This document shows positions 10,164 through 27,729 of a DNA stretch of 37,269 nt, piece by piece. Numbering within the stretch: the stretch's first letter is position 1; each line of letters opens with the position of its first letter. Below the pieces are notes generated by a model. It made no database searches. It was given only the letters and a program-made list of their open reading frames with translations, and was not told where the DNA came from. This DNA comes from Novosphingobium sp. (GTDB lineage: Bacteria; Pseudomonadota; Alphaproteobacteria; Sphingomonadales; Sphingomonadaceae): positions 1 through 37,269 of the forward strand of contig JAQWKP010000340.1 of NCBI GenBank assembly GCA_029247785.1, written 5' to 3'. Both the position numbers and the translations under genes were made by a program.

Positions 10164-11543
10164 GTGAAGCTAGCGACGAGAAACGAGCAGGTGACTGGAA
10201 CGCTGGCCAAACTCGTAGTCCTGCTCGCTCTCCTTTTGTTCAGCTCAAAGATGGTCTCAGCTGCGACAGAAACTTCCACCCGCTTCGAAGGCGTGGCGAG
10301 CTGTGCGGGCTCTACTTGTCACGGGCGCAACGAAGGTGACGGCAAGGTGGTGCGCCAGGATGAACTGAGAATCTGGCAGGAACCCTCAAGCAAGGCTGGT
10401 GCACATAGCCGGGCATTCAGCGTCCTCGCCAGCCAGCGCGGCCAGCGCATTGCTTCCGCACTCGACCTCGGAAAAGCGACCTCCGCAACGGAGTGCCTTG
10501 GTTGCCATTCGACTTTTGTGCCAACTGAACGGCGAGGCGAGCGCTTCCTCCTATCGGACGGTGTCGGCTGCGAATCTTGCCACGGTGCAGGCTCCGGCTG
10601 GCTTTCCGGACACTATGCCGTTCCGGCAACCCACACGTCGAACGTCGCTGCCGGCTTGCAGGAACTCAATCACCCGCAAGTCCGTGCGTCGGTTTGCCTC
10701 GACTGCCATTTCGGAAGCGACAGACAGGGACAATTTGTTACCCATGCCATGATGGCGGCTGGCCATCCGCGTATTTCGTTCGAGTTGGACTTGTTCTCAG
10801 CCATGCAGCAACATTACAACTTCGACACCGACTACAAGCGTCGCAAGTCCACGCCGGACGCCCTACAACTCTGGGCGGTCGGCCAAGCTGAAGCCGTGAA
10901 ACGCTCCACCCGGCTGTTCGGCAATGCCAAGCTGGCTACCGAGGGCATCTTTCCGCAGTATTACTTCTTCGACTGCCACAGCTGCCATCGCCAGATCACC
11001 GATAACCCGACTGCCAACCGCCGGTTCGAGACCAATCCGGGCCGACCGATGCCGTTCGGCTTGGCACCATACAATGACGAGAATATCATTATACTGTCGG
11101 CGGTGTCCAAAGTCCTGGCCCCCGGCCAGGCATCACGCTTCGATGCTGCCAGCCGCAAGTTCCACTCTGCGATAGGTCAGGGGCGCTCACAGGCCGTTGC
11201 GGCGGCACGCCAGCTCAATGCGGCAGCTGATGCGCTCTCCGATGCCCTTGCCGTGCGGGGCTTTGCCGGAGGCACCGCATTTAGTGTCATCGAGGCGATC
11301 AGCAGCAAGGCAATCTCGCCCCGCTTTACCGATTATGCAGGGTCCGTTCAGGCAGTCATGGCTATCGACACGCTACTCAATTCTCTCGTGAAGGATGGAC
11401 GCGTCACGATCGGTGCAGCGGCAGGGATTCGAGCCGACATCAACCGCGCCTATGCTGCTGTTGGCAGCCCAGAACGCTATAGCCCCTCGCAATTCCGGGC
11501 GGCGCTCGGCCGCGCTTCTCGCAGCATCGGAGCGCTTAACTAA
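10164..11543 (+). CDS. Cytochrome c554-like multiheme c-type cytochrome (4 CXXCH + 1 CX4CH)
   Basis: 459 aa, GTG start with GGGAG SD-like motif upstream, signal-like N-terminus; heme motifs CAGSTCH (CX4CH), CLGCH, CESCH, CLDCH, CHSCH. Confidence 0.88.
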   Translation: MKLATRNEQVTGTLAKLVVLLALLLFSSKMVSAATETSTRFEGVASCAGSTCHGRNEGDGKVVRQDELRIWQEPSSKAGAHSRAFSVLASQRGQRIASALDLGKATSATECLGCHSTFVPTERRGERFLLSDGVGCESCHGAGSGWLSGHYAVPATHTSNVAAGLQELNHPQVRASVCLDCHFGSDRQGQFVTHAMMAAGHPRISFELDLFSAMQQHYNFDTDYKRRKSTPDALQLWAVGQAEAVKRSTRLFGNAKLATEGIFPQYYFFDCHSCHRQITDNPTANRRFETNPGRPMPFGLAPYNDENIIILSAVSKVLAPGQASRFDAASRKFHSAIGQGRSQAVAAARQLNAAADALSDALAVRGFAGGTAFSVIEAISSKAISPRFTDYAGSVQAVMAIDTLLNSLVKDGRVTIGAAAGIRADINRAYAAVGSPERYSPSQFRAALGRASRSIGALN

Positions 11544-13525
11544 TGCGCAAGTTGCCAGGATATATTTCAAGTGCGGCGCTTTCTCTGTTGGTAGCCTGCA
11601 GCGGCGGGTCAACGCCATCTGGTGGCGGATCATTCGGGACCGGAACGCCTTCACCAACCCCTACGCCCGCAGCAGCGGGCAGCTACTCGATACCTGCGAC
11701 CGAGGCCCTCACCGTCGTCGATGTGCGACGGATCATCGCTCAGGCCGTCGGTGAAGCACAGGCTCAGAACCTTCCGTCGATCATTGCCGTGGTCGACCGT
11801 GTCGGAAATGTGCTGGCCGTCTTCAGCATGAACGGCGCTCGCCCGGACATGGTGACCAGCCGGCTCACTGCCACTGGCGTTATCAACAATCCCAATGTCG
11901 ACGCCCAAGGTCTGAATGTTCCGGCAACACTGGGGGCCATCGCCAAAGCTGTCACCGGGGCGTATCTATCAAGCGGCGGCAATGCCTTTTCCACCAGGAC
12001 TGCTAGTCAGATCGTCCAAGCTAATTTTCCGCCTGCCCCCAATACAGTCGGTCTCGAGAGCGGTCCGCTTTCCGGTGTGCAGTTCAGCCAACTGCCTTGT
12101 TCCGATCTCAACACTCGTTTCAAGGCGGGGGCCGCCACCGATGCGTTGATCGGCCCCAAACGGTCGCCGCTTGGGCTTGCGGCAGACCCTGGTGGTCTGC
12201 CGCTCTACAAGAATGGTGTGATCGTTGGCGGAATCGGCGTGATGGGTGACGGTGATTACGGTCTAGACCCCAATACACTCGATATCGATAGCGATGCTGA
12301 AGAACACATCGCTCTTGCCGGCATTCAGGGATTTGCGCCGCCTGAAACGATCACGGCGGACAAGATCACAGTCGACGGCACCAGCCTGCGGTTCAGCGAT
12401 GCCAAAGCTGCAAGCCTTTCCCCGCTCCAGACCAGTTTCGCCGTGGTGAACGGCTCGGCAGGACAGTTGATCGCCGTCAATGGATATACCAACGGCACCA
12501 TGATCGCGGGCACTGCTTATGGGACCGAAGCCAGCGGCTTCAGGAAGGCGGCCGGCGGGGACTTCGCCTTCTCCGATGCCTTCGTGTTGAGCAACGGCGC
12601 TGGCGGCAATCGTTTTCCGATCAAGGCCGGGACTGACGGAGTCGATGTCAGCCAGCCACTCACCGCTGCAGAAGTCCGCGCAATCCTTGAAGAAGCCTTC
12701 AAGCTCATGCGTCGCTCACGGGCCCAGATTCGTCGTCCACTTGACAGCCGGGCAGAGGTGACCGTCAGTCTCGTCGACACCTATGGCGCGGTGCTCGGTG
12801 TCGTCCGCTCACCCGACGCCCCAATCTTCGGAACCGACGTCTCGCTGCAGAAAGCGCGCACCGTCGGCTTTTTCTCGAACCCGATCGCAGCCCAGCAGCT
12901 TCTCAATAACCCGGACGCGGAAATTCCCGCATTCGTCCAGCGTACTCGAACATTCTTTGGCGATCCCACTGCCCTGAGCGGCAAGGTCGCGTTCGGCGCC
13001 AGGGCGATCGGCAATATCGCGCGACCGCACTTCCCCGATGGTGAAGCGGCTCAACCTGAGGGACCATTCTCACGACCTATTGAGGATTTCAATCCATTCG
13101 CCACCGGCCTGCAAGTCGCACTCGTCGCCTCTAATCTGGTGCAACACGCAAATTTTGTTAGCGGTCAACCAGGAGCCAGCGACACCGCCCAGCAGTGCAC
13201 GAATGTCCCGCCTGCGCCTTCGGGCCAGAGCCGGCTCGCAAACGGCATGCAGATATTCTCCGGAGGCGTTCCAATATACCGCAACGGAGTGATCGTCGGC
13301 GCGATCGGCGTCTCCGGCGACGGCATCGACCAAGACGACATGATCAGCTTCCTTGGCGTCGATCTTGGCGGCAAGAGAGTCGGTTCGATCGGCAACGCGC
13401 CCTCGGCGATCCGGTCGGACAAAGTCGTGATCAATGTCGGTGCCGGAGTGCGTCTACGCTACGTTAACTGCCCGTTCGCGCCATTCCTCGATTCGGCTGA
13501 ACAGAACGTCTGCGCGGGTCTGTGA
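11543..13525 (+). CDS. Lipoprotein with two GlcG/HbpS (DUF336-like) heme-binding-type domains
   Basis: 660 aa; lipobox LLVAC at the N-terminus; two copies of the family pattern (VVDRVGNVLAVFSMNGA ... GGLPLYKNGVIVGGIGVMGDGD and LVDTYGAVLGVVRSPDA ... GGVPIYRNGVIVGAIGVSGDG). TAATG overlap with the preceding gene. Confidence 0.82.
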   Translation: MRKLPGYISSAALSLLVACSGGSTPSGGGSFGTGTPSPTPTPAAAGSYSIPATEALTVVDVRRIIAQAVGEAQAQNLPSIIAVVDRVGNVLAVFSMNGARPDMVTSRLTATGVINNPNVDAQGLNVPATLGAIAKAVTGAYLSSGGNAFSTRTASQIVQANFPPAPNTVGLESGPLSGVQFSQLPCSDLNTRFKAGAATDALIGPKRSPLGLAADPGGLPLYKNGVIVGGIGVMGDGDYGLDPNTLDIDSDAEEHIALAGIQGFAPPETITADKITVDGTSLRFSDAKAASLSPLQTSFAVVNGSAGQLIAVNGYTNGTMIAGTAYGTEASGFRKAAGGDFAFSDAFVLSNGAGGNRFPIKAGTDGVDVSQPLTAAEVRAILEEAFKLMRRSRAQIRRPLDSRAEVTVSLVDTYGAVLGVVRSPDAPIFGTDVSLQKARTVGFFSNPIAAQQLLNNPDAEIPAFVQRTRTFFGDPTALSGKVAFGARAIGNIARPHFPDGEAAQPEGPFSRPIEDFNPFATGLQVALVASNLVQHANFVSGQPGASDTAQQCTNVPPAPSGQSRLANGMQIFSGGVPIYRNGVIVGAIGVSGDGIDQDDMISFLGVDLGGKRVGSIGNAPSAIRSDKVVINVGAGVRLRYVNCPFAPFLDSAEQNVCAGL

Positions 13526-13526
13526 A

Positions 13527-15548
13527 ATGCCGATAGCGTCACTGCTCGTTCCAATGTTACTGGCCCAGCCTATAGCCGGAGCGGCCGCAGGGGATCTTAC
13601 TACGTCGGAGAAGCTTGCACGAGAGACGAGCGAGAGCGCTCCGGATGACGACGCTGACTGGGTGGGGTGCATCGTCGAGACAGACCAGAACATCATTTGT
13701 CCGCCAGGCGTTGAAGAAGCTCCCGACACGGTCGACCCCGGATTACTTGAGGGACGCCGCCGGCCTGGCCTTGAAGCCGCCCTTCCCGAACGCGTTACCC
13801 AAGACAATCCCGGCGCCGTCCGCGCCCCACCGCCTGAGGCCTTTCCCGTGGATCAGGTACCCATTCCAGACCGCTGGCGGCTGATTCAATCGCTAGGCCT
13901 GGTTAAGGAGCGCTGGTTCGATCCTTACAACCAGAACACATACAAAGGCGACCGACCGATTTGCATCCCTACCGAGGATGAGCAAGAAAGGCGGATGGCT
14001 CTGCGCGAGGCCGCGCGAGCCGAAGGCAAAAAGCCGCCCTATGGAAGCGCGCCATGCCTTACACCAAAATTCCTGGGCTTGACTGGGGATGACTGGTTCT
14101 TCGCTGCCAACCTTGTTTCAGACACGGTTTTCGAACCCCGCACATTCCCCATACCTGTCGGGCTGCAAACCACCACCCGGCCGGACACGCTCGACCTCTT
14201 CGGCAAGGATGCGAGCATGGTATTCTCGCAAACCTTCATCGCCGGCCTCGCTCTGATCAAGGGTCAGACTGCCTTCAAGCCTCCCGATGTAGAGTATCGG
14301 GTGACGCTGGCGTACAACGTAAATTATGTAAATGTACCTGAACGGCGCGTGCTGTTCGTCGAACCATCCAAGCCCTCGCAGCGCACCGACCATTTTCTGG
14401 GAGTCCAGGAAGCCTTCATCGATTATCACATCCGCAACACCTCTGACCGTTACGACTTCGATTCGATTCGTGTTGGCATCCAGCCGTTCCAGGCCGATTT
14501 CCGCGGCTTTCTGTTCAATGACAACCAGTTGGGCATCCGCCTGTTTGGCACCCGGGATAACAATCGATTCCAATTCAACGTCGGGGCATTCTGGCGACTG
14601 GAGAAGGACACCAACAGCGGCCTCAATGCGATTCTGCAAAAACCTCGCAAGGACTGGGTGCTCTATGCAAATCTGTATCGGCAAGATTTCCTGATCCCGA
14701 GCCTAACCAGCCAGATAACCGTGGTCTACAACCGCAACCGCGAAGGCAACCAGATCGAGATCGACGATAATGGCTTTACGGTCCGGCCGGCCCTGATTGG
14801 CGATCTTCGAGGACGTGAGTATGATGTCGTTTATCTCGGCTACAACGCCGACGGGCATATCGGGCGCATCAACTTGACCGCATCGGCCTATGCGGCGCTG
14901 GGCAAAGACCGGAACAGCATCTTCACCAGCGAGCCTGCCAATATCCGTGCATTTTTCGGCGCCGCCGAACTGAGTTATGACCGCGCATGGATGCGATTCA
15001 GGCTATCGGCACTCTATGCGTCAGGTGATGGCGATCCTTACGACAACAAGGAAACTGGCTTCGACGCGATTTTCGAGAATCCGGTCTTCGCCGGCGCCGA
15101 CACCAGCTACTGGATCCGCCAGACGATTCCGTTCGCTGGCGGCGGCCGGGCCGTTTCTGTCAACGGTCGCAACGGTATTCTTAATTCCCTTCGCTCGTCC
15201 AAAGAGCAGGGCCAATCCAACTTTAACAATCCGGGAACGATGCTTCTGGGCGTTGGCGGCGATTTTGACCTGACCCCGGAATTTCGCCTGTCGGTCAACG
15301 CCAACCACCTCTGGTTCGAAAACACATCCTCGCTGCAAGCGCTGCGCAATGAAGGCAGCATTCCCAAGGATATCGGCTATGATCTATCTCTTTCGGCAAT
15401 CTGGCGCCCGAAAGCGACGCAGAACATCGTCGCTCGCTTGTCCGCAGCCGCCCTACTCCCCGGCAAGGGCTTCCGCGACTTGTTTGACAACCAGAACGGG
15501 AACCGGAACTACTATTCGATTCTCGCCAACGTGATATTCACATACTGA
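13527..15548 (+). CDS. Outer-membrane beta-barrel/porin-like protein
   Basis: The ORF opens at 13434, but ATG at 13527 gives MPIASLLVPMLLAQPIAGAAAGD (signal-like) directly after the upstream stop; many amphipathic strand-like segments and a terminal aromatic strand (NRNYYSILANVIFTY). Confidence 0.75.
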   Translation: MPIASLLVPMLLAQPIAGAAAGDLTTSEKLARETSESAPDDDADWVGCIVETDQNIICPPGVEEAPDTVDPGLLEGRRRPGLEAALPERVTQDNPGAVRAPPPEAFPVDQVPIPDRWRLIQSLGLVKERWFDPYNQNTYKGDRPICIPTEDEQERRMALREAARAEGKKPPYGSAPCLTPKFLGLTGDDWFFAANLVSDTVFEPRTFPIPVGLQTTTRPDTLDLFGKDASMVFSQTFIAGLALIKGQTAFKPPDVEYRVTLAYNVNYVNVPERRVLFVEPSKPSQRTDHFLGVQEAFIDYHIRNTSDRYDFDSIRVGIQPFQADFRGFLFNDNQLGIRLFGTRDNNRFQFNVGAFWRLEKDTNSGLNAILQKPRKDWVLYANLYRQDFLIPSLTSQITVVYNRNREGNQIEIDDNGFTVRPALIGDLRGREYDVVYLGYNADGHIGRINLTASAYAALGKDRNSIFTSEPANIRAFFGAAELSYDRAWMRFRLSALYASGDGDPYDNKETGFDAIFENPVFAGADTSYWIRQTIPFAGGGRAVSVNGRNGILNSLRSSKEQGQSNFNNPGTMLLGVGGDFDLTPEFRLSVNANHLWFENTSSLQALRNEGSIPKDIGYDLSLSAIWRPKATQNIVARLSAAALLPGKGFRDLFDNQNGNRNYYSILANVIFTY

Positions 15549-18500
15549 TGCGGCTGCTGCGCTTCCTCCTTGTCTTGATTGCGATCCTTATGGTCGCGGT
15601 GCCGTCGGCCCAAATCCTGGCGAGCGACGATGAAATGACGGTTGAGCGCGACTATTCGCTGGTAACCGCGCCGCCCGCTCCGGCCAGGCAGTCCGTTGCA
15701 GATGTCCGGATGAAATCGGAAGGCTGCCTGAGCTGCCACGTCGAGACCGATTCGGCCAGCATGCACGCCACGCCTGCGGTCCGGCTTGGCTGCACCGATT
15801 GCCACGGCGGCAACGCCACCATCAAAGGCAATCCCGAACTAGGCTTTTCCCATCCCGACTATGTCGCGGCGCGCGATGCTGGCCATGTCCTACCGAAATA
15901 TCCGGAAAGCTGGCACTTCCCGACTTCAGCCAACCCCAAGCGCGGCTACACCCTGCTCAACAAGGAAGCGCCCGAATTCGTCCGTTTCGTCAATCCCGGC
16001 GACTATCGTATCGCCCGCGAATCCTGCGGTGCCTGCCACCTCCCCGTTATCGAGGCTGCTGAACGCTCGCTAATGGCATCAGGCGCGATGCTTTGGGGCG
16101 GGGCCGCCTATAATAACGGCATTATCCCTTTCAAGAACTACGTCCTAGGGGAAGCCTACACACGCGAGGGTGAGCCAGCCAAGATAATTTCCCCTGGCTC
16201 ACCTGCCGGCACCCTGACAGCTGAGCAGCAGGCGCGCGGAGCCCTGGCAGCACTGTATCCGCTGCCCCGCTGGAATGTCATCCCGCCGGGAGACGTGTTT
16301 CGCGTCTTTGAACGCGGGGGTCGCAATATAAACTCGCAGTTCCCGGAAATCGGGCTGCCGAACCCGTCAGGCCAGATTCAGCGGCTCGAGGAGCCAGGGC
16401 GGCCCGACCTCAAGCAGTCGAACCGAGGTCCCGGCACAGGCCTGAGAGTCGCTATCCCGGCGCTCAACATCCACAAGACTCGGCTCAACGACCCTTTCAC
16501 CTGGTTCATGGGCACCAATGACCAGCCCGGCGACTACCGCAGCTCAGGCTGCACCTCATGCCATGTCATCTACGCGAATGACCGAGAGCCGCGGCACAGC
16601 CTGATCTATGCATCGCTAGGGCGGGATGGGCAGACGATCACAAAGGACCCCACTATCGCGGCCAAGCTGGAACCTGCTCAAAGCAACGATCACGGTGATG
16701 GCCAGAATGCGATGCCCCACGATAGCGACGACCGCGGCAAGACCCCGGGGCACGGCGACGGGCACAACTCGGACGGCAAGGCCAAAGAAAAAGGCCATCC
16801 CCTCCAGCATATCTTCACTCGCGCCATTCCAACGGCCCAGTGCATGAATTGCCACATGCATCAGCCTAACGTCTTCGTGAATCCCTATCTTGGCTACACT
16901 ATGTGGGACTATGAATCCGACGCGCCGAAAATGTGGCCCGGCCCTGAAAATGAAACGCCCCGGCCCGAAGGGATCAGCGACGAAGAATACCAAAGAGTAT
17001 ATAAGCAGCAGCGCTTTCCCACTGCCGAGGAAGTGCGTGCCATAAATGAGCGCAATCCCGAAGCCGCCGCAGCGAAGGGCCTATGGGGCGATATCGATTT
17101 CCTGCGCAACGTCTATGACCTCAACCCCGAGCTCAAGGACACGCAGTTCGCGGACTATCACGGCCATGGCTGGAATTTTCGTGCCGTTCTGAAGCGCGAC
17201 CGCGATGGCAACCTGCTCGATGCCGATGGCAATATCGTCGACCCCGACGATCCGGAGAAATGGCGCCGCAAGGATGAGGGCAAATTCGTCGAAGTGGGCA
17301 AAAATCCGGGCAAGACCGTCCACATGATGGATATCCATGCTGAAAAAGGGCTGCAATGCGCGGACTGCCATTTCGCGCAGGACAGCCATGGCAACGGACT
17401 TATCTACGGCGAAGTAGCCAATGCCGTCGAAATCGGCTGTAAGGATTGTCACGGCACTGCCGACGCATATCCGACCCTGCTAACATCGGGACCGGCGGCG
17501 CCCCCGACTGGCAATGACCTGACCCTGCTGCGCAATCCCGATGGCGAGCGCCGCTTCGAATGGCGCGAGGAACCATCCGGACGCAGGACGCTGATCCAGC
17601 GCTCGATCATCGATCCAGGCCTGCAGTGGGAAGTCAGCCTTGTCAGGAATTCGGTTGACGCTGCTTCGCCCGATTTCAACTCCAAATCAGCGCGCGCAAA
17701 GCTGATAAGCACGGCCGGAGCAGATGACGGCAATTATGCTTTCGGCCCCGGCATCACGGTGGAAAATCGCGCCCACAAGGATGACGAGATGGCCTGTTTC
17801 ACTTGCCATCTGTCATGGACAACGAGCTGCGGTGGCTGCCACTTGCCGATCGAGGCGAACTGGCAAACCTCGATGCACCACTATGAGGGCGAGACGACAC
17901 GCAATTTCGCAACCTACAACCCACAGGTTGCGCGCGACCAAATGTTCCAGCTGGGCAAGCACATGACGACCAAGGGCAGTCAAGTTGCGCCGATTCGTTC
18001 GACCTCGGCGCTCGTGCTGTCCTCGACCAACATCAACCGCGAACGGATCTATGTGCAGCAGCCGCCAATCTCGTCCTCGGGCTTTTCCAGCCAGGCATTC
18101 GCACCTCACTTCCCGCACACAGTTCGTAAGACGGAGACCAAGGCTTGCACCGATTGCCATCTCAGCGCCGATGAAGACAACAATGCGATTATGGCGCAGT
18201 TGCTGCTGCTCGGCACCAATTTTGTCAATTTTGTCGGCATCAACGCCTGGGTCGGGCTCGATGGTGGCTTTGAGGCCATACGGGTGACCGAATGGGACGA
18301 ACCGCAAGCAGTGCTTGGCTCTTACCTGCACCGCTATGCCTATCCCGACTACTATCGCCTGCATGTCGAGAAGAACGGGCGCGAGCTGAAGAATTGGGTG
18401 CGGGGCAAGTATTTTGATGGCAGCGCTTCCGGCGAAACCAAGGCGATCGAGCAATTCCGCAATGTCGTGCAGGGCACGCGTGGCGCCGTGGGCTGTCTGC

Positions 18501-19711
18501 AGATGCGCGGCGAATATATGTTCGTTGCCGAAGGCAAGGGCGGTTTGCACGTCTATGATATTGCCTCGGTCGGCAACAAGGGCATTTCCGACCCGGTCTT
18601 CAGCGCGCCTTTCTCCCCGCTCGGCCATGACACTCGGGTCAAGACCAGCAATGCCACCTGTATGGCGCTTGCAACTAACCAGCCTGTCGCACCCGACCGT
18701 AGTCGCGCCATGGATGCCACCGAGATGATGGACAGCGACGGCAATCCGATCATCCAGGAAGACGGCACTCCGCTGACTTTGCTTGAGGCCAACCAGGAGC
18801 AGAAATTTCTGCCGATTTATGATTACGCTGTCATCACTGACAGTGAAGAGGGCCTGATCCTTGTCGACATCAACACCATGGCGGACGGCGAATTCCGCAA
18901 CAACAAGCTCAAGCGTGCGGCGACCTGGAATCCAGACAAAGTACTCGCGGGCGCGCGCCACATCACCCTGGCCGGCGAAATCGCTTACGTCACTGCAAAT
19001 GCCGGACTCGTCGTTGTCGACCTCACCGACCCGCTCAATCCCGTGCTCGCCTCGGTCCAACCGCTAAGAGATGCCCGCGCAAGCGCAGTGCAGTTCCGCT
19101 ACCTTTGGGTGACAGACGCTGAGGGATTAAAGCTGTTCGACGTTACTGATCTGCGCAGACCGGTCGCCGTTCCATCGGGCACGGTCTCGCTAGCCGACGC
19201 GCGCCGAATCTATCTCGCGCGCACCTACGCATATGTCGCTGCGAAGCAGGACGGGTTGGTGATCGTCGACGTAACTCAACCTGGATCGCCGAATATATAC
19301 GAGAAGGTTACTCTGGGCGGACGGCTCAACGACGCCGAGGACGTGATCGTCGGTTCGACAAACGCTACCCTCTTCGCATATGTCGCCGACGGCAGAAACG
19401 GACTCAAGGTCCTGCAGCTGACCTCGCCATCGACCCAGCCTAATTTCTACGGCTTCTCACCCGCGCCGAAACCGCAGCTAATCGCCTGGGCAAAAACGCC
19501 TTCGCCGGCGCGAGCGCTGTCCAAGGGGCTTGATCGTGACCGGGCGGTCGATGAAACAGGCGGCCAAATGGCTATCTTTGGTCGCCTCGGATCGCGGCCC
19601 TTCACCCGACCGGAAATGGAAAAGCTGTTCCTCAACCGGCAGCGCGTGCCCTTCAAGGTCACCGACACAGTCGACATGTCGACATGGGTCCCGCTGCCCG
19701 CGCCGCAGTGA
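15548..19711 (+). CDS. Large decaheme c-type cytochrome with C-terminal LVIVD-repeat (beta-propeller-like) region
   Basis: 1387 aa; N-terminal signal-like MRLLRFLLVLIAILMVAVPSAQILA; ten CXXCH (CLSCH, CTDCH, CGACH, CTSCH, CMNCH, CADCH, CKDCH, CFTCH, CGGCH, CTDCH); C-terminal repeats such as GLVVVDLTDPLNP, GLKLFDVTDLRRP, GLVIVDVTQPGSP. Start overlaps the upstream stop (TGATG). Confidence 0.92.
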   Translation: MRLLRFLLVLIAILMVAVPSAQILASDDEMTVERDYSLVTAPPAPARQSVADVRMKSEGCLSCHVETDSASMHATPAVRLGCTDCHGGNATIKGNPELGFSHPDYVAARDAGHVLPKYPESWHFPTSANPKRGYTLLNKEAPEFVRFVNPGDYRIARESCGACHLPVIEAAERSLMASGAMLWGGAAYNNGIIPFKNYVLGEAYTREGEPAKIISPGSPAGTLTAEQQARGALAALYPLPRWNVIPPGDVFRVFERGGRNINSQFPEIGLPNPSGQIQRLEEPGRPDLKQSNRGPGTGLRVAIPALNIHKTRLNDPFTWFMGTNDQPGDYRSSGCTSCHVIYANDREPRHSLIYASLGRDGQTITKDPTIAAKLEPAQSNDHGDGQNAMPHDSDDRGKTPGHGDGHNSDGKAKEKGHPLQHIFTRAIPTAQCMNCHMHQPNVFVNPYLGYTMWDYESDAPKMWPGPENETPRPEGISDEEYQRVYKQQRFPTAEEVRAINERNPEAAAAKGLWGDIDFLRNVYDLNPELKDTQFADYHGHGWNFRAVLKRDRDGNLLDADGNIVDPDDPEKWRRKDEGKFVEVGKNPGKTVHMMDIHAEKGLQCADCHFAQDSHGNGLIYGEVANAVEIGCKDCHGTADAYPTLLTSGPAAPPTGNDLTLLRNPDGERRFEWREEPSGRRTLIQRSIIDPGLQWEVSLVRNSVDAASPDFNSKSARAKLISTAGADDGNYAFGPGITVENRAHKDDEMACFTCHLSWTTSCGGCHLPIEANWQTSMHHYEGETTRNFATYNPQVARDQMFQLGKHMTTKGSQVAPIRSTSALVLSSTNINRERIYVQQPPISSSGFSSQAFAPHFPHTVRKTETKACTDCHLSADEDNNAIMAQLLLLGTNFVNFVGINAWVGLDGGFEAIRVTEWDEPQAVLGSYLHRYAYPDYYRLHVEKNGRELKNWVRGKYFDGSASGETKAIEQFRNVVQGTRGAVGCLQMRGEYMFVAEGKGGLHVYDIASVGNKGISDPVFSAPFSPLGHDTRVKTSNATCMALATNQPVAPDRSRAMDATEMMDSDGNPIIQEDGTPLTLLEANQEQKFLPIYDYAVITDSEEGLILVDINTMADGEFRNNKLKRAATWNPDKVLAGARHITLAGEIAYVTANAGLVVVDLTDPLNPVLASVQPLRDARASAVQFRYLWVTDAEGLKLFDVTDLRRPVAVPSGTVSLADARRIYLARTYAYVAAKQDGLVIVDVTQPGSPNIYEKVTLGGRLNDAEDVIVGSTNATLFAYVADGRNGLKVLQLTSPSTQPNFYGFSPAPKPQLIAWAKTPSPARALSKGLDRDRAVDETGGQMAIFGRLGSRPFTRPEMEKLFLNRQRVPFKVTDTVDMSTWVPLPAPQ

Positions 19712-20707: not shown

Positions 20708-21562
20708 TCAGCCAAGTCCCCGGCGCTCTTCGTCGATATGCTTGACGATTTCCTGCAGGGATTTGTCAAAGCGAGCGAAAACGCGGTGGTCATCGACGGC
20801 TTCGAAATGGGAGATCAGGCGTTCGCCATCCCAGTGATGCAATGCGTAAACCGGGTATTCGTCGGTAATCATTGCGCGCTTGTCAGGTTTTTTGGGGTTG
20901 ATAGGCCTCAAATCGAGAGCGACGAGCGGCGCGGTCGAGGCGCAGACTGTTAACGGCACTCCATTCCACAATGCGTGGATGTTGCGATGAAGGTGTCCGC
21001 TAAGGATCGCCTGAACTTGGCCATGACCGGCGATACTATCGGCAAACCTCTTCATCCAGGGCTCATTGGCGTTACCATCAAGCCAGCTGATTCCCGATTC
21101 GAACGGCGGATGATGCATCGCAATGATCGTCGGCGTATTCGGATGGGCGGCGAGCTCAGATTGCAGCCAGGCCGCACGAGCCTCACAGAATGCACCGCCA
21201 TGCCGCCCTGGCTCAAGCGTATCGAGCAGAAGGACCCGCGCGTCCTCGGCTTCGATCGCAAATTGGATGAAGCTCTCATTGCTGGGCGTGTCAGGAAAGG
21301 CGGCCAGCATGGCATCACGATCATCATGGTTGCCGACCATCGGCCAGACCGGAAACGGGCAGATATCAACAGCCTCGGCGAGTCGCTTATAGCTTGGAGC
21401 ATCGCCAAATTCGGTGAGATCGCCTGTCATCACGAGCGCGTCGGGTGCGTTGGGCGCATCGACAAGCCTCTGGATAACCGCCTCGAGGCGTTCCATGTTG
21501 TATTCGTCCGGGTTTCCCTGGTCAAAACCGATATGAACGTCAGTGATCTGTGCGATCAGCAA
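20708..21562 (-). CDS. CpdA-like metallophosphoesterase (candidate 3',5'-cyclic nucleotide phosphodiesterase)
   Basis: 284 aa; MLIAQITDVHIGF, VMTGDLTEFG, MVGNHDDRD, AMHHPPFESG, ILSGHLHRNIH are the metal-ligand motifs of class III cyclic nucleotide phosphodiesterases. Confidence 0.87.
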   Translation of the reverse strand: MLIAQITDVHIGFDQGNPDEYNMERLEAVIQRLVDAPNAPDALVMTGDLTEFGDAPSYKRLAEAVDICPFPVWPMVGNHDDRDAMLAAFPDTPSNESFIQFAIEAEDARVLLLDTLEPGRHGGAFCEARAAWLQSELAAHPNTPTIIAMHHPPFESGISWLDGNANEPWMKRFADSIAGHGQVQAILSGHLHRNIHALWNGVPLTVCASTAPLVALDLRPINPKKPDKRAMITDEYPVYALHHWDGERLISHFEAVDDHRVFARFDKSLQEIVKHIDEERRGLG

Positions 21563-21616
21563 TCTATTCTCCCCACCTCGTTCCCTTATTCATTCGGGCA
21601 TCGTAGCGGCCGGCAA

Positions 21617-23356
21617 TCAGCCTTGTTCTTTGGCCCGAGAATTCCGCTTTCTGTCGGTTGTATCCACCGCTCCTTGTCCCGTCATGTGATAACCATGGCA
21701 CATAATACAACTCGACGGCACTTTTGCTTTCACCGTGTCTTCGCCGAGATGGCATTGACGGCAGTCCTTGATGCCTGGAAGCAGCAGGTCCTTTGCGCTG
21801 GTTGATGTTGGCGCCGCGTGGCAACTCGTGCAATCCTCTTGCTTATGGGCTGCGTGGTCAAACCAACCATGGTCCATGTACCGAGATACAAGTGTCACTG
21901 GCTGCACACCGATCTTGCCATCGGCGCGCGATGCGGGTCTGTGACATTCCCCACAAATTCCATCTTTCGACAAGGCTATCCCGACTTTCAATCCTTTCCA
22001 TGCCGCACCAGAGAAATTGAAATGATAGGGTCGGCCCTGCGCGTAATCGCCTGGCCGGCGGCGCGCTGAAATGGACTGCCGCCTGAAATCCCCCGCGCTT
22101 AGATCCGCGATCACCTGATCGACATCGCCATGCCTTAGCTTGCGGAAAATGCCACCAACCTGATCATAAGTCAGGCTGTGACAGGCCTCACAATCCCGCT
22201 CCATGTCGATTTTCTGGAAGCGAATTCCGTCCTCTGTCGGCCTGTGACAGTCCTTGCATTGCAGTCCGCCCGCGCCGTAACCGGCCTCACTGCCAATATT
22301 CGCCGCCATTCGCGCAACCCCGCCCTTTGTCCGGAGATGAAGTTTATGCGGAAATGTCAGGCCACTGTCTTCCCGCGGACGCCTGTCCAGCGAAACGCGG
22401 ACCGGCTTGCCGATGGTGGAATCGGTGATAATGGCCGGCGCGAACTGCGGATGCTGGCTACCGAAATCAACTGCTTCGCCGAGGCTGGTATCGGGCAAGT
22501 TCTCCTTGAGCATGCCATGGCAGTCTGCACAAAATGCCTGAGGCGCCGGCTCCATGAACCGATTGCCCTCATGCTCTGTATGGCAGTCCGCGCAGGCTCC
22601 CGGACCTTCCTTCCCAAATGCATGAGCGACGGACCGGAGGAGCTTAGTTCCCAGCGGCCTGCTTCCGTGTGCCGCGTCCAGCCGGGTTAAGTCGGCATGG
22701 TCATGCAGATCGGTGTGACAGGACTTGCAGGTTTCATCCCTCACCGATTCGAAAGCGCGAACATGGCAGGTTTCACACTGATCCTTCAGACCGTGATGGG
22801 CGAGGCTCAGATCGCCGGAGCTCCAGCTGGAATCGCCAATAACCTGCTGCTTGGCCTCGACATCGCGTGTGACGTGGCTGACGATCGGAACAGCAAGAAA
22901 CGACAAGAGTATGAATGCAGCCAGGGCCCACGACATGACGCGCTTGCTCGGCAGTACGCCCGCCAGCGAGAAGCCTAGCTTCTGTTCTAGATCGCCCGAC
23001 TTTGTGGCTGAGTCCTCGACCTGCCTGACAGTCAGCAGAACATCATCGGCGTCGGCAGAGATGGTGATGCGATATGTGCCGAAGCCGAGTTCGCCACCAC
23101 CGCTCCTATCAATTGTGGCTTGTGACGTTTCGACGCCGTCGAGCGAAAACCCCAGCGTGCCGGTCGCCTCGACACTTAGCCTGCCCCCCCCATGCTCAGT
23201 GATAGTCGCGTGCTGCGGCTCGATCGCGAGGTCGGGCAAGTGAATCCCATTCTCTGCCGCCCGTCCGACAGACACGCTCGATCCGGCATGTTCATAGTCT
23301 CGAACAATCTCGCGACCGGTAGCCGTGAACTCGACCGTCCTGAGTTTGAATGCCAT
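21617..23356 (-). CDS. FHA domain - transmembrane helix - decaheme cytochrome c fusion protein
   Basis: 579 aa; N-terminal FHA pattern SVGRAAENGIHLPDLAIEPQHATITEHGGG, single TM VMSWALAAFILLSFLAVPIVSHVT, then ten CXXCH (CETCH, CKSCH, CADCH x2, CKDCH, CEACH, CGECH, CTSCH, CRQCH, CIMCH). Confidence 0.9.
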   Translation of the reverse strand: MAFKLRTVEFTATGREIVRDYEHAGSSVSVGRAAENGIHLPDLAIEPQHATITEHGGGRLSVEATGTLGFSLDGVETSQATIDRSGGGELGFGTYRITISADADDVLLTVRQVEDSATKSGDLEQKLGFSLAGVLPSKRVMSWALAAFILLSFLAVPIVSHVTRDVEAKQQVIGDSSWSSGDLSLAHHGLKDQCETCHVRAFESVRDETCKSCHTDLHDHADLTRLDAAHGSRPLGTKLLRSVAHAFGKEGPGACADCHTEHEGNRFMEPAPQAFCADCHGMLKENLPDTSLGEAVDFGSQHPQFAPAIITDSTIGKPVRVSLDRRPREDSGLTFPHKLHLRTKGGVARMAANIGSEAGYGAGGLQCKDCHRPTEDGIRFQKIDMERDCEACHSLTYDQVGGIFRKLRHGDVDQVIADLSAGDFRRQSISARRRPGDYAQGRPYHFNFSGAAWKGLKVGIALSKDGICGECHRPASRADGKIGVQPVTLVSRYMDHGWFDHAAHKQEDCTSCHAAPTSTSAKDLLLPGIKDCRQCHLGEDTVKAKVPSSCIMCHGYHMTGQGAVDTTDRKRNSRAKEQG

Positions 23357-23371
23357 GCCCCCGCTCCCGTT

Positions 23372-24235
23372 CTACCAGTAGTAGAGCACGCTGATGACGT
23401 GCGCGAGAAGCGCGGCTATCAGTGCGATCGTCGCTGGAACGTGAATGTAGAGCCAAACCTCCAGCATTCCCCTTAGTCGCATCTGTCGCCGGATTCGTTC
23501 AAGCTGCGCCTTGCGCCGAACCATGAGCTTTTCGACCCGATCCATAGCGGTGTCGGAAGAATCAGAACCGGCCAGTCCCTCGATAGCAGCCTGCGTTGCA
23601 CAATCTGGATGGTTGCCGGATAGCCTTCGAAATAGGCCATGGTCGAGAGGATCTTCCGCAAGGGCCTCAAGCACAAGGTCGGCCTGCACCCGGGCAAGCG
23701 GCTGCGCTGCATCGTGGAGCTGACGATCGAGCGACGTGATGGCGTCAACCATTTGCCCTTGAGTCATTTCCTCCCGGTTGCTGCTGAGCGCGCTTGGCAA
23801 GGTCGCATACAAATAGGTCCCGAATACTCCTGACAGGATCACCAGCATCATCATGGCATAGGCTAAGGTATGTACGTTCCAGCCCAACTGAAAGCCGGTG
23901 TGCAGCGTGGCAATTACGATAAGCGAGAGCCCGAGATAAACATGGGCCGACGTCCAGGCTTTGAGCGACCAGTTGCCCTGCGTGATCATTCGCTTGCGAA
24001 TACCCAGAAGCGAAAGCCAGAGGATTAGAAGGGCTCCGATCGTACCCAGAATATAGCCGATCCAGCTCCCCCCGTTCGGGCGTGGCTCGACATCCGCCAA
24101 CAGGTAGGCAATCAATGATACGACGCTGGCGCCAAGCGCAATCTTCAGCCAACGAAAGCTCCTGTGACGCAGGAAGCTTTCATGGCTGCCCGGGCCGCCG
24201 CGCGCCCTGTTTGCAGTGTGAGGCTTGGTGGCCAT
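23372..24235 (-). CDS. Putative b-type heme membrane protein (cytochrome b561/ferric-reductase-like)
   Basis: 287 aa, about five TM segments; spaced histidines in TM segments (SAHVYLGLSLIVIATLHTGF, NVHTLAYAMMM, WLYIHVPATIALIAALLAHVISVLYYW) around a soluble helical insert; TGATG overlap with the upstream gene. Confidence 0.7.
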   Translation of the reverse strand: MATKPHTANRARGGPGSHESFLRHRSFRWLKIALGASVVSLIAYLLADVEPRPNGGSWIGYILGTIGALLILWLSLLGIRKRMITQGNWSLKAWTSAHVYLGLSLIVIATLHTGFQLGWNVHTLAYAMMMLVILSGVFGTYLYATLPSALSSNREEMTQGQMVDAITSLDRQLHDAAQPLARVQADLVLEALAEDPLDHGLFRRLSGNHPDCATQAAIEGLAGSDSSDTAMDRVEKLMVRRKAQLERIRRQMRLRGMLEVWLYIHVPATIALIAALLAHVISVLYYW

Positions 24236-26682
24236 CAGGCGTCTTCACTCATGCGCGTAGCTGAAAGGAAGCCCTCTGGCGAAACGCGGATTGCTGCACC
24301 CGTAGGGCAGGCGCGAACGCACGATGGGCCGCCATCGATACCCGAGCACATGTCGCATTTGATGGCGCGCTTGGGACTTTCTTCGCCTTCAATAATATTC
24401 TTCTTGCGCCAGCTCTTGGTTGGCTCACCAGGGCCGGGCCCCTTGCCCAGAAATAGCCAATTCAGCAGAGAAGGCTTGGCCGGCGGTACACTGTCCATGC
24501 GGATCACCCCATAGGGACAGTTTCTCTGACAATTGCCGCATCCGATGCAGGTCTCGTCGATGAAGACTTCTCCGTCGATGCCGCGCTGGATCGCGTTGGG
24601 TGGGCAGTCGGCCATGCAATGCGGGTGTTCGCAATGACGGCAGCTGGTCGGAACGTGAAGATGCGCATAGGTCGTACCCGCCTCGCGATCGAGGCGCGAG
24701 AGACCGTCATGACTATCCGCGCATGCCTTTTCACAATTGTCGCAGCCTACACAGAGCGTTTCGTCAATCAGCAGGACGTCCGTCGCCTCGCCGATGCCGT
24801 TGTCGACAAGGAATTGGGCGGTCTGCGAATACATATCGACGACGCCGGAAAAATTCTCCTTGCGGCTTTCAATGAACGTGTTGACCTCCCTGCGTTTTTC
24901 CATTTCCACCTGGGCCTTGCGGAGCAAGTCTGGCTCGCGTTCAAGCAGGCGGACAAAGGCATCGCCAGGCAGCCTGATGACCTCGGATTTGATCGCCGCG
25001 CGCACCGTCGCGTTGCGGGGCGCACCGTCGATAACGCCCATTTCCCCAACATAAGAGCCAGCAGGCAAATAGCTTAGAAACACTGGCTTGCCGGCAATCT
25101 CGCGCTCGACGATCATCGAGCCGCGGCGGATGATATAGATATCCTCCCCCATCTCGCCTTCCTGAAGGACGACCTCGCCAGCCCGCTTGTTCTGCACTTC
25201 CGCGCCCTCAACCAGTTCGGCGACATCCTCCTTGGTAAGTCCCGAGCCAAATATCTGGAGCAATTGCCGTTCGATCGAGATCCGGTTGACCGCCCGCGCA
25301 GCGCTCGGAACCGTCGCGATCAATTTGAGCGCCGCAGTACGCAACAGCTCGACAACTACAAGGTCCTCGGCCGCACGGATCGTTGCGCCTCGGCGCCTAC
25401 CCGAGATCAGGCCGACTTCGCCGAAAATCGAGCCTTCCTCGATCGGAACGGTAATCGAAGGGTCTTCCTTGTTGACCTCGACCAGCACCGAGCCTTGCGC
25501 GATGGCAAATAGCGAAGAGCCGGGCGCATTGCGGTCGAAAACCGCGTCCCCGCGAGAAAAGCTTTTCACTCGGCTGTCGATCAGCAATTCGCGAAGTTGC
25601 AGAGGCGAGAGTTCCTTGAATATCTCGATGTTACTGCCAAACAGATCAAGCCACTCGGCGACACTCCGGCTGCCTGGCAGCGCAGCAAATTTTTCAGTCA
25701 GGATCGGCTCGTCTGCGGGCTTGAGCGTCGTATTGCCATTGAGAAATTCTACGACATCATAGCCCTGATTCATACAGTGCTTGATCAGCGGGTAGCCAGC
25801 CAGCGCACCGATGACATGGATCCCTGAACGGGTCGTCTCGAACACTGGCGAGAGTACCGGAAAGGCTTCGCGTTCCTCGCTGGTGAATTCAATGTCGCAG
25901 CCCTCGACGAAACTGCGCGGCGGCGCCGAGCCGGTTCGGGCGATAATCCGCCCACACTCGATGGTTTCCTGCCCGTCGCGTGTGTCGAGCACGAGCTTTC
26001 CTTCGCGAACCTCGGCAGGCGTCGTCTCGGTCCTCACATGCACACGGCCGGCCGCTCCTGCCTCCTTCAGCAATTCGACATTGGCCTTCTTCGCACGCGC
26101 GAATTCCGGGCTGCGGTTGAGGATCGTGACCACGTTGCGCTGCGCTGGATCGGCGGCAAGGCCAAGCGCGTTCTCGATTCCGGCGTCGCCCGATCCAACC
26201 ACAGTGATATGTTCGTCAATATACTCGGTCGGATCGTCGAGCTGGTACTGGATATGTGGCGAGTCAGCGCCGTCGCAACGCAGCTTGTTGGGATTGCCCT
26301 GGGTTCCGATCGCGAGAATGACGGCTTCGGCTTCGATAGTGTCTCCGCCTTTGAGCTGGAGAGTGAAATTGCCCTTCTCGCCGTCGATGCCGACAACATC
26401 CGCGTTGTAGCGGACGGCAATCTTGTTAGTCTCGGCCTGCTCGTCCCAAATTCCGAGAATGGTCTCGCGGCTGCCCGCGTCGAAATCGAGGTCAGACCTG
26501 AGGACCAGCATGGATGGCGTCGCCATGACGTGCTTGCCCTTCTGGTACTTGTAGATCGTGTCCGACAGGTGGTCGGTCTTTTCCAGCAACACGTGCGCAA
26601 TGCCAAGCTCGGCAGCGCGGCCAGCAGCGCTCAACCCCGCCGGACCAGATCCGACTATGGCAATCCGAACGCGTACTTCCAC
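24235..26682 (-). CDS. FAD/NAD(P)-dependent oxidoreductase fused to two cyclic-nucleotide-binding domains and a 4x[4Fe-4S] ferredoxin (HycB/DmsB-like) domain
   Basis: 815 aa; Rossmann IAIVGSGPAGLSAAGRAAELG; second Rossmann ITVVGSGDAGIENALGLA; two cNMP-type segments (GSVLVEVNKEDPSITVPIEEGSIFGEVGLISGRRRGATIRAAED and GSMIVEREIAGKPVFLSYLPAGSYVGEMGVIDGAPRNATVRA); Fe-S motifs CVGCDNCEKAC, CRHCEHPHCMADCP, CIGCGNCQRNCP, CDMC...CVRACP. Confidence 0.92.
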   Translation of the reverse strand: MEVRVRIAIVGSGPAGLSAAGRAAELGIAHVLLEKTDHLSDTIYKYQKGKHVMATPSMLVLRSDLDFDAGSRETILGIWDEQAETNKIAVRYNADVVGIDGEKGNFTLQLKGGDTIEAEAVILAIGTQGNPNKLRCDGADSPHIQYQLDDPTEYIDEHITVVGSGDAGIENALGLAADPAQRNVVTILNRSPEFARAKKANVELLKEAGAAGRVHVRTETTPAEVREGKLVLDTRDGQETIECGRIIARTGSAPPRSFVEGCDIEFTSEEREAFPVLSPVFETTRSGIHVIGALAGYPLIKHCMNQGYDVVEFLNGNTTLKPADEPILTEKFAALPGSRSVAEWLDLFGSNIEIFKELSPLQLRELLIDSRVKSFSRGDAVFDRNAPGSSLFAIAQGSVLVEVNKEDPSITVPIEEGSIFGEVGLISGRRRGATIRAAEDLVVVELLRTAALKLIATVPSAARAVNRISIERQLLQIFGSGLTKEDVAELVEGAEVQNKRAGEVVLQEGEMGEDIYIIRRGSMIVEREIAGKPVFLSYLPAGSYVGEMGVIDGAPRNATVRAAIKSEVIRLPGDAFVRLLEREPDLLRKAQVEMEKRREVNTFIESRKENFSGVVDMYSQTAQFLVDNGIGEATDVLLIDETLCVGCDNCEKACADSHDGLSRLDREAGTTYAHLHVPTSCRHCEHPHCMADCPPNAIQRGIDGEVFIDETCIGCGNCQRNCPYGVIRMDSVPPAKPSLLNWLFLGKGPGPGEPTKSWRKKNIIEGEESPKRAIKCDMCSGIDGGPSCVRACPTGAAIRVSPEGFLSATRMSEDA

Positions 26683-26802: not shown

Positions 26803-27729
26803 ATGACACAACATACAACCCGACCTTACCCGATTGCCCGGATCGCATTGATCGTCGCTGCGCTGGCAGCGGCATTTGCGGTGGGATTTACGATCTCGAG
26901 AAGCGCGGATGAGGGTGGCACCAGCGACCTCACTGTTCCCGATGCCGTCTCCACAGTAGCGTCGGTTTCAAGCCTGGAGGAAAAAACCAAGGCAAATCCC
27001 GAAAACGCACCCGCCTGGCTGGAGCTAGGCCAGGCCTATTTTGTCGATAGCCGGTTCGCAGACGCAGCGCGGGCCTATGACAAGGCGACCGCCCTCGTTC
27101 CGGACGACGCGATGGCGTGGTCGGCGCTCGGCGAGGCGCGGGTCATGGCAAGCGAGCGTGATCCGATGCCAGCCGAGGCGCTCGCCGCATTCAAGCGCGC
27201 CATCGCCCTCGATAGCAAGGAGCCACGAGCACGGTATTTTCTCGCCGTCAAACGGGACCTTGATGGAGACCACGAGGGGGCCATCGCTGACTGGCTCGCC
27301 GTGCTTATGGACACACCCGAGAACGCTCCCTGGCGCGGCGACTTGATCCGCACGGTCGAGCAGGTCGGCAAGATCAACGGGATCGACGTCGCCGCTCGCC
27401 TCGCAAAGGCCGGCGCGCAATCCCCTCCCGCACCGCCCATGCCTGCGGCAGCGCGCGCCATACCCGGGCCCTCGGCGCAGGACCTTGCAGCGGCTTCGCA
27501 AATCCCGCCGGGCGAGCAGCGCGAAATGGCCGAAGGCATGGTCGCGCGGCTGGAAAGCCGTCTCAAGGGCGACCCCGCCAATGTCGACGGGTGGCTGATG
27601 CTGATCCGCAGCCGGGCAACGCTTGGCCAGAAGGACAAGGCGAGCCAGGCGCTCAAGGACGCAGCAGCAGCTAACCCGGCACAAGCGGCCGCGATTCGCC
27701 AGCAGGCCGCGACGCTCGGCGTGAAGTGA
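26803..27729 (+). CDS. CcmI/NrfG-like TPR protein, putative cytochrome c biogenesis factor
   Basis: The ORF opens at 26038 but that part is antisense to the reductase gene; ATG at 26803 gives a TM anchor (IARIALIVAALAAAFAVGFTI) plus TPRs and C-terminal AASQIPPGEQREMAEGMVARLESRLKGDPANVDGWLMLIRSRATLGQKDKASQAL, a CcmI-like region. Confidence 0.83.
   Translation: MTQHTTRPYPIARIALIVAALAAAFAVGFTISRSADEGGTSDLTVPDAVSTVASVSSLEEKTKANPENAPAWLELGQAYFVDSRFADAARAYDKATALVPDDAMAWSALGEARVMASERDPMPAEALAAFKRAIALDSKEPRARYFLAVKRDLDGDHEGAIADWLAVLMDTPENAPWRGDLIRTVEQVGKINGIDVAARLAKAGAQSPPAPPMPAAARAIPGPSAQDLAAASQIPPGEQREMAEGMVARLESRLKGDPANVDGWLMLIRSRATLGQKDKASQALKDAAAANPAQAAAIRQQAATLGVK

Follow-up and report, generated by a model that had tools for sequence, protein, structure and literature searches.

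A class III phosphodiesterase gene co-inherited in Sphingomonadaceae with an operon for a predicted cyclic nucleotide-binding flavin/Fe-S reductase and a decaheme cytochrome

The window, the whole stretch of 37,269 nucleotides that was analyzed, is one contig (G000:C50) of a Novosphingobium draft genome in 385 contigs. The four minus-strand genes that the original prediction grouped in an apparent operon are all present as open reading frames in the predicted place and order, with the domains of all but the b-type protein confirmed with Pfam. They are accompanied by a divergent TPR gene, which adjoins the reductase gene nearly always, and by a convergent plus-strand module:

10164 to 11543, plus strand: tetraheme c554-like cytochrome (Pfam)
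11543 to 13525, plus strand: lipoprotein-like protein of 660 aa with two HbpS-like stretches (Pfam)
13434 to 15548, plus strand: possible outer-membrane barrel of 704 aa, no Pfam hit, barrel inferred, aromatic C-terminal end
15548 to 19711, plus strand: decaheme cytochrome of 1387 aa with LVIVD repeats (Pfam)
20708 to 21562, minus strand: class III (calcineurin-like) phosphodiesterase of 284 aa, TTG start (Pfam Metallophos)
21617 to 23356, minus strand: FHA-decaheme protein of 579 aa (Pfam FHA and multiheme)
23372 to 24235, minus strand: b-type membrane protein of 287 aa, no Pfam hit
24235 to 26682, minus strand: protein of 815 aa with FAD, two cyclic nucleotide-binding (CNB) and four [4Fe-4S] domains, GTG start (Pfam/NCBIfam)
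26803 to 27729, plus strand: CcmH/NrfG-like TPR protein (Pfam)

The reductase and b-type genes overlap by one base in TGATG and the FHA-decaheme and phosphodiesterase genes are 54 nt apart, both as predicted, whereas the gap between the b-type and FHA-decaheme genes, given earlier as about 16 nt, counts to 15 nt. The TTG start of the phosphodiesterase gene is preceded by AGGTGGGGAG, and a search for a minus-strand promoter- or terminator-like site between it and the FHA gene found none. No published description of the operon was returned by a literature search, for which most subscription papers were out of reach.

The 815-aa protein is a predicted cytoplasmic reductase containing Pyr_redox, two cNMP_binding stretches, and a Fer4 set. 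Its flavin domain is YpdA/Bdr-like and lacks the CxxC of thioredoxin reductases; the protein scores 112.5 bits against NCBIfam TIGR04018 (YpdA/Bdr), below the cut-off of 339.9, and in an AlphaFold model (pLDDT 77, with low confidence in the Fe-S part) the flavin part matches Bdr (7a7b). Sixteen cysteines for four [4Fe-4S] clusters are nearly invariant among homologues. The two CNB domains are placed between the flavin and Fe-S parts, and each contains the phosphate-binding cassette GE...R, with E422, R431, and R556 conserved in 142/142 homologues and E547 in 140/142. The position that follows the arginine of the first domain (CNB-A) is occupied by Gly in each of the 112 Sphingomonadaceae sequences and by Thr or Ser in 26 of the other 30, possibly a sign of an altered pocket. 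As some CNB folds bind no nucleotide, these domains might be structural or unable to bind cyclic nucleotides, and the reductase controlled otherwise; with the Glu/Arg anchors of both domains near-invariant in proteins down to 43% identity, we consider this very unlikely, and the CNB sites look functional.

Besides the reductase, the Novosphingobium genome gave a single CNB match, an FnrL-like regulator that lacks the GE...R signature; canonical CNB sites were thus found there in the reductase alone. A general role of the reductase as sole cAMP receptor was rejected, as several relatives carry other canonical CNB proteins (a lower bound, from plus-strand matches); the phosphodiesterase could serve those regulators instead.

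The helices of the b-type protein are of membrane type, and four invariant histidines, spaced as two H-x13-H pairs (98/112 and 265/279), underlie its prediction as a di-heme b electron transfer subunit. A fold search gave no significant match and a profile search of the PDB nothing meaningful; comparison with cytochrome b561 (4o6y) gave Z 7.0 and an rmsd of 3.5 over 135 residues, a score that means little for helical bundles. At one locus outside Alphaproteobacteria (L211:7850-11203), the b-type protein and the reductase are fused in a single 1118-aa open reading frame. The FHA-decaheme protein has an N-terminal FHA domain, one predicted transmembrane segment, and ten C-terminal CxxCH motifs, all ten hemes being kept in 104/104 family homologues. 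Among the FHA phosphate-contact residues (G-R ... S-x-x-H), R32 is invariant and the usual Ser is replaced by E, D, N, or A in most homologues, so that phosphothreonine may not be bound in the canonical manner. The convergent module (10164 to 19711) looks like a porin-cytochrome-type conduit, and most of it is found tandemly arranged with the reductase genes elsewhere in Alphaproteobacteria.

The phosphodiesterase gene is inherited with the redox genes across the family. Among 298 Sphingomonadaceae genomes, 119 have the reductase and 130 have the phosphodiesterase; the latter is found in 119/119 genomes with the reductase versus 11/179 without it (the value of a Fisher test on this co-occurrence is not a true probability, the genomes being related). 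Where both genes are on one contig, the phosphodiesterase lies directly downstream in 112 of 115 genomes; in the remaining 4 of the 119, the two are on different contigs and adjacency cannot be judged. At 105 assessable loci, some representing one species under two locus ids, FHA is immediately followed by the phosphodiesterase gene in 104, with a median gap of 27 nt and a 4-nt overlap in three. A genus-level sample agrees (38/38 reductase genomes, with the phosphodiesterase on another contig in G068), twelve large secondary replicons of Sphingobium carry the pair, and an annotated record of Sphingobium herbicidovorans shows the four genes in an order identical to that in the window. The linkage is thus far above chance, and the conservation that was proposed as a check on the original prediction is borne out within this family. 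Elsewhere in the family, the phosphodiesterase and TPR genes of G003 (L157:8913-10723) are separated by about 0.5 kb, and reductase, b-type, and FHA genes are all missing there, as would be expected had the redox genes been deleted; two Sphingobium loci (L247:617-1360 and L252:6119-6862) have a second metallophosphoesterase gene a few kilobases upstream of the operon, past the TPR gene.

A phosphodiesterase gene residing elsewhere in relatives with the redox operon had been named as evidence against a local circuit. Such a placement exists in a minority (G215, G310, G173, and G068), and in these genomes a CHASE2 class III cyclase gene forms a tandem with the displaced gene. The same tandem occurs in G280, in which the operon is absent and on whose copy the cyclase domains were checked, and the same cyclase is present in 11 of the operon neighborhoods retrieved. 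Cyclases of this type (AC172-type) occur in 21/298 genomes, 21/21 with the phosphodiesterase and 20/21 with the reductase, and in only 20 of the 119 reductase genomes. No cyclase is near several stray phosphodiesterase genes in operon-less genomes; cyclase pairing is therefore not universal, and the base of the phosphodiesterase tree is too poorly supported to order it relative to operon pairing. The Novosphingobium genome has no AC172-type cyclase and encodes at least two others, one of which also has a CHASE2 domain and one of which is a further full-length class III enzyme.

The phosphodiesterase matches Pfam Metallophos with 61.9 bits (cut-off, 21.5), and its metal ligands in D-x-H, GD, GNHD, H, and GHxH (D8, H10, D48, N78, H150, H190, and H192) are conserved in 98/98 family sequences; no signal sequence was seen. 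It had been labeled CpdA-like, a description that fits less well than others: NCBIfam NF008359 (CpdA) gives 93.2 bits against a cut-off of 225, NF050112 (SpdA) gives 147.7 bits against a cut-off of 400, and the nearest solved structures in a profile search are Rv0805 and GpdQ. Judged by these scores, the protein appears to belong to an SpdA/Rv0805/GpdQ branch and to be closer to it than to CpdA.

This placement bears on the substrate. SpdA of Sinorhizobium meliloti, whose gene is at the cyaD1/clr locus and thus beside a cyclase gene, cleaves 2',3'-cNMPs and has no detectable activity on 3',5'-cAMP; Rv0805 favors 2',3' substrates 150-fold; and 2',3'-cAMP is bound unproductively by Clr (PMC4222275). 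Given these preferences of the nearest characterized relatives, 3',5'-cAMP hydrolysis should not be assumed. The enzyme might instead clear 2',3'-cNMPs from RNA decay that would otherwise block the CNB sites unproductively, without ending a 3',5' signal. We regard this alternative as unlikely: although NCBIfam ranks SpdA first, both of its cut-offs were missed, the specificity of class III phosphodiesterases is unpredictable from sequence according to the SpdA authors (PMC4222275), and such a function leaves unexplained why the link is confined to a single family while the CNB reductase is more widespread.

The wider distribution of the redox genes sets further bounds on interpretation. The three-gene core occurs in other Alphaproteobacteria and further afield at 43 to 54% identity, often in tandem with HbpS-like, 704-aa, and LVIVD-decaheme genes. 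In none of 25 such loci from other Proteobacteria with enough sequence does a phosphodiesterase gene follow FHA, which marks it as an accessory of the redox operon rather than part of its core; one outlier (L208, 66% identity) has a phosphodiesterase gene 4.8 kb away. Restriction of intact CNB sites to phosphodiesterase-bearing operons was rejected, the anchors being intact in operons without a phosphodiesterase gene too, and cyclic nucleotide sensing by the reductase therefore appears to be older than the phosphodiesterase link. Homologues of the phosphodiesterase with 32 to 39% identity are found elsewhere in 21/29 of the outside genomes; pairing of these with cyclases was likewise rejected, as no cyclase was found in 20 stretches reading about 7 kb to each side where the contig allowed. 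In Mesorhizobium, two homologues (L248 and L250) with about 34% identity lie within phosphonate C-P lyase operons.

Such contexts raise the possibility of a general phosphodiesterase, GpdQ-like or acting on another phosphodiester, that is simply carried along in the operon. By profile, the enzyme matches both GpdQ and Rv0805, homologues with about 34 to 36% identity reside in phosphonate C-P lyase or phosphatase/ABC transport operons, and some occur in unrelated surroundings where the genome has a redox operon with no phosphodiesterase gene. However, this explanation leaves the complete co-inheritance with the CNB reductase (119/119) and the cyclase tandems as coincidences, and we consider it decidedly unlikely.

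We instead favor, with a probability of roughly one-half, a reading in which a cyclic nucleotide-gated reductase feeds a transmembrane multiheme conduit while a co-expressed phosphodiesterase sets or cleans the cyclic nucleotide signal. The first three gene products would form an inner-membrane electron transfer unit in which electrons pass from NAD(P)H (assumed) to FAD, the four [4Fe-4S] clusters, the two b hemes, and the ten periplasmic c hemes, and then probably to the convergently encoded multiheme/outer-membrane module. A cyclic nucleotide bound to the two CNB domains would alter the rate of electron transfer, and the phosphodiesterase, made together with the reductase, would hydrolyze the nucleotide in the same compartment and thereby set the signal level at the reductase. 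Its most likely substrate would be a 3',5'-cNMP produced by class III cyclases. Counting against this reading are the lack of 3',5'-cAMP activity in SpdA, the best-matching characterized family, despite its cyclase locus, and the redox operons outside Sphingomonadaceae that have intact CNB sites and no phosphodiesterase gene. The restriction of the AC172-type cyclase to 20 of the 119 reductase genomes, the stray phosphodiesterase genes that have no neighboring cyclase, and the additional canonical CNB regulators of several relatives also weigh against it.

That, in this bacterium and over 100 related species, an electron transfer operon whose first enzyme has two cAMP-type sites is nearly always followed by the gene of a predicted cyclic nucleotide-destroying enzyme suggests that a second messenger switches electron flow directly. 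The genomic evidence supports control of the reductase by a cyclic nucleotide and selection that ties the phosphodiesterase to it, and not the originally proposed feedback itself: the co-expressed enzyme would provide negative feedback were the nucleotide an activator of the reductase and relief of inhibition were it an inhibitor. More tentatively, with somewhat less than an even chance, we hypothesize that a 3',5'-cNMP acting on the flavin/Fe-S reductase gates electron export through the multiheme conduit, with the cyclase and phosphodiesterase constituting a dedicated nontranscriptional signaling module. The action of bacterial cAMP is mostly known via transcription factors, and the favored reading, if true, would connect cAMP directly and allosterically to electron transfer, respiratory or extracellular, through a widespread, conserved reductase.

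Among characterized systems, that of SpdA is the most alike, as its class III cytoplasmic enzyme is the best NCBIfam match and has genes for a class III cyclase and a CNB receptor as neighbors; its receptor is the transcription factor Clr, whereas the predicted receptor here is an electron transfer enzyme. Rv0805 of Mycobacterium tuberculosis and GpdQ are structurally the closest by profile, and to our knowledge neither is linked to a redox operon; CpdA of Escherichia coli shares the superfamily with a lower score than SpdA. The reductase has its flavin fold in common with the bacillithiol disulfide reductase YpdA/Bdr but carries it joined to CNB and four [4Fe-4S] domains. Its CNB pair resembles in sequence the CNB domains of the tandem-CNB kinases (the PKA R subunit and PKG) and of the CNB-fused bacterial acetyltransferase Pat, in which CNB domains are placed for direct control of an enzyme, but the output in the present system would be electron transfer. 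Finally, respiratory redox state and cAMP are also joined in CyaC of S. meliloti, a redox-sensing cyclase with a di-heme b anchor (PMC10463352); there, redox controls cAMP synthesis (PMC10463352), whereas here cAMP would control redox flow.
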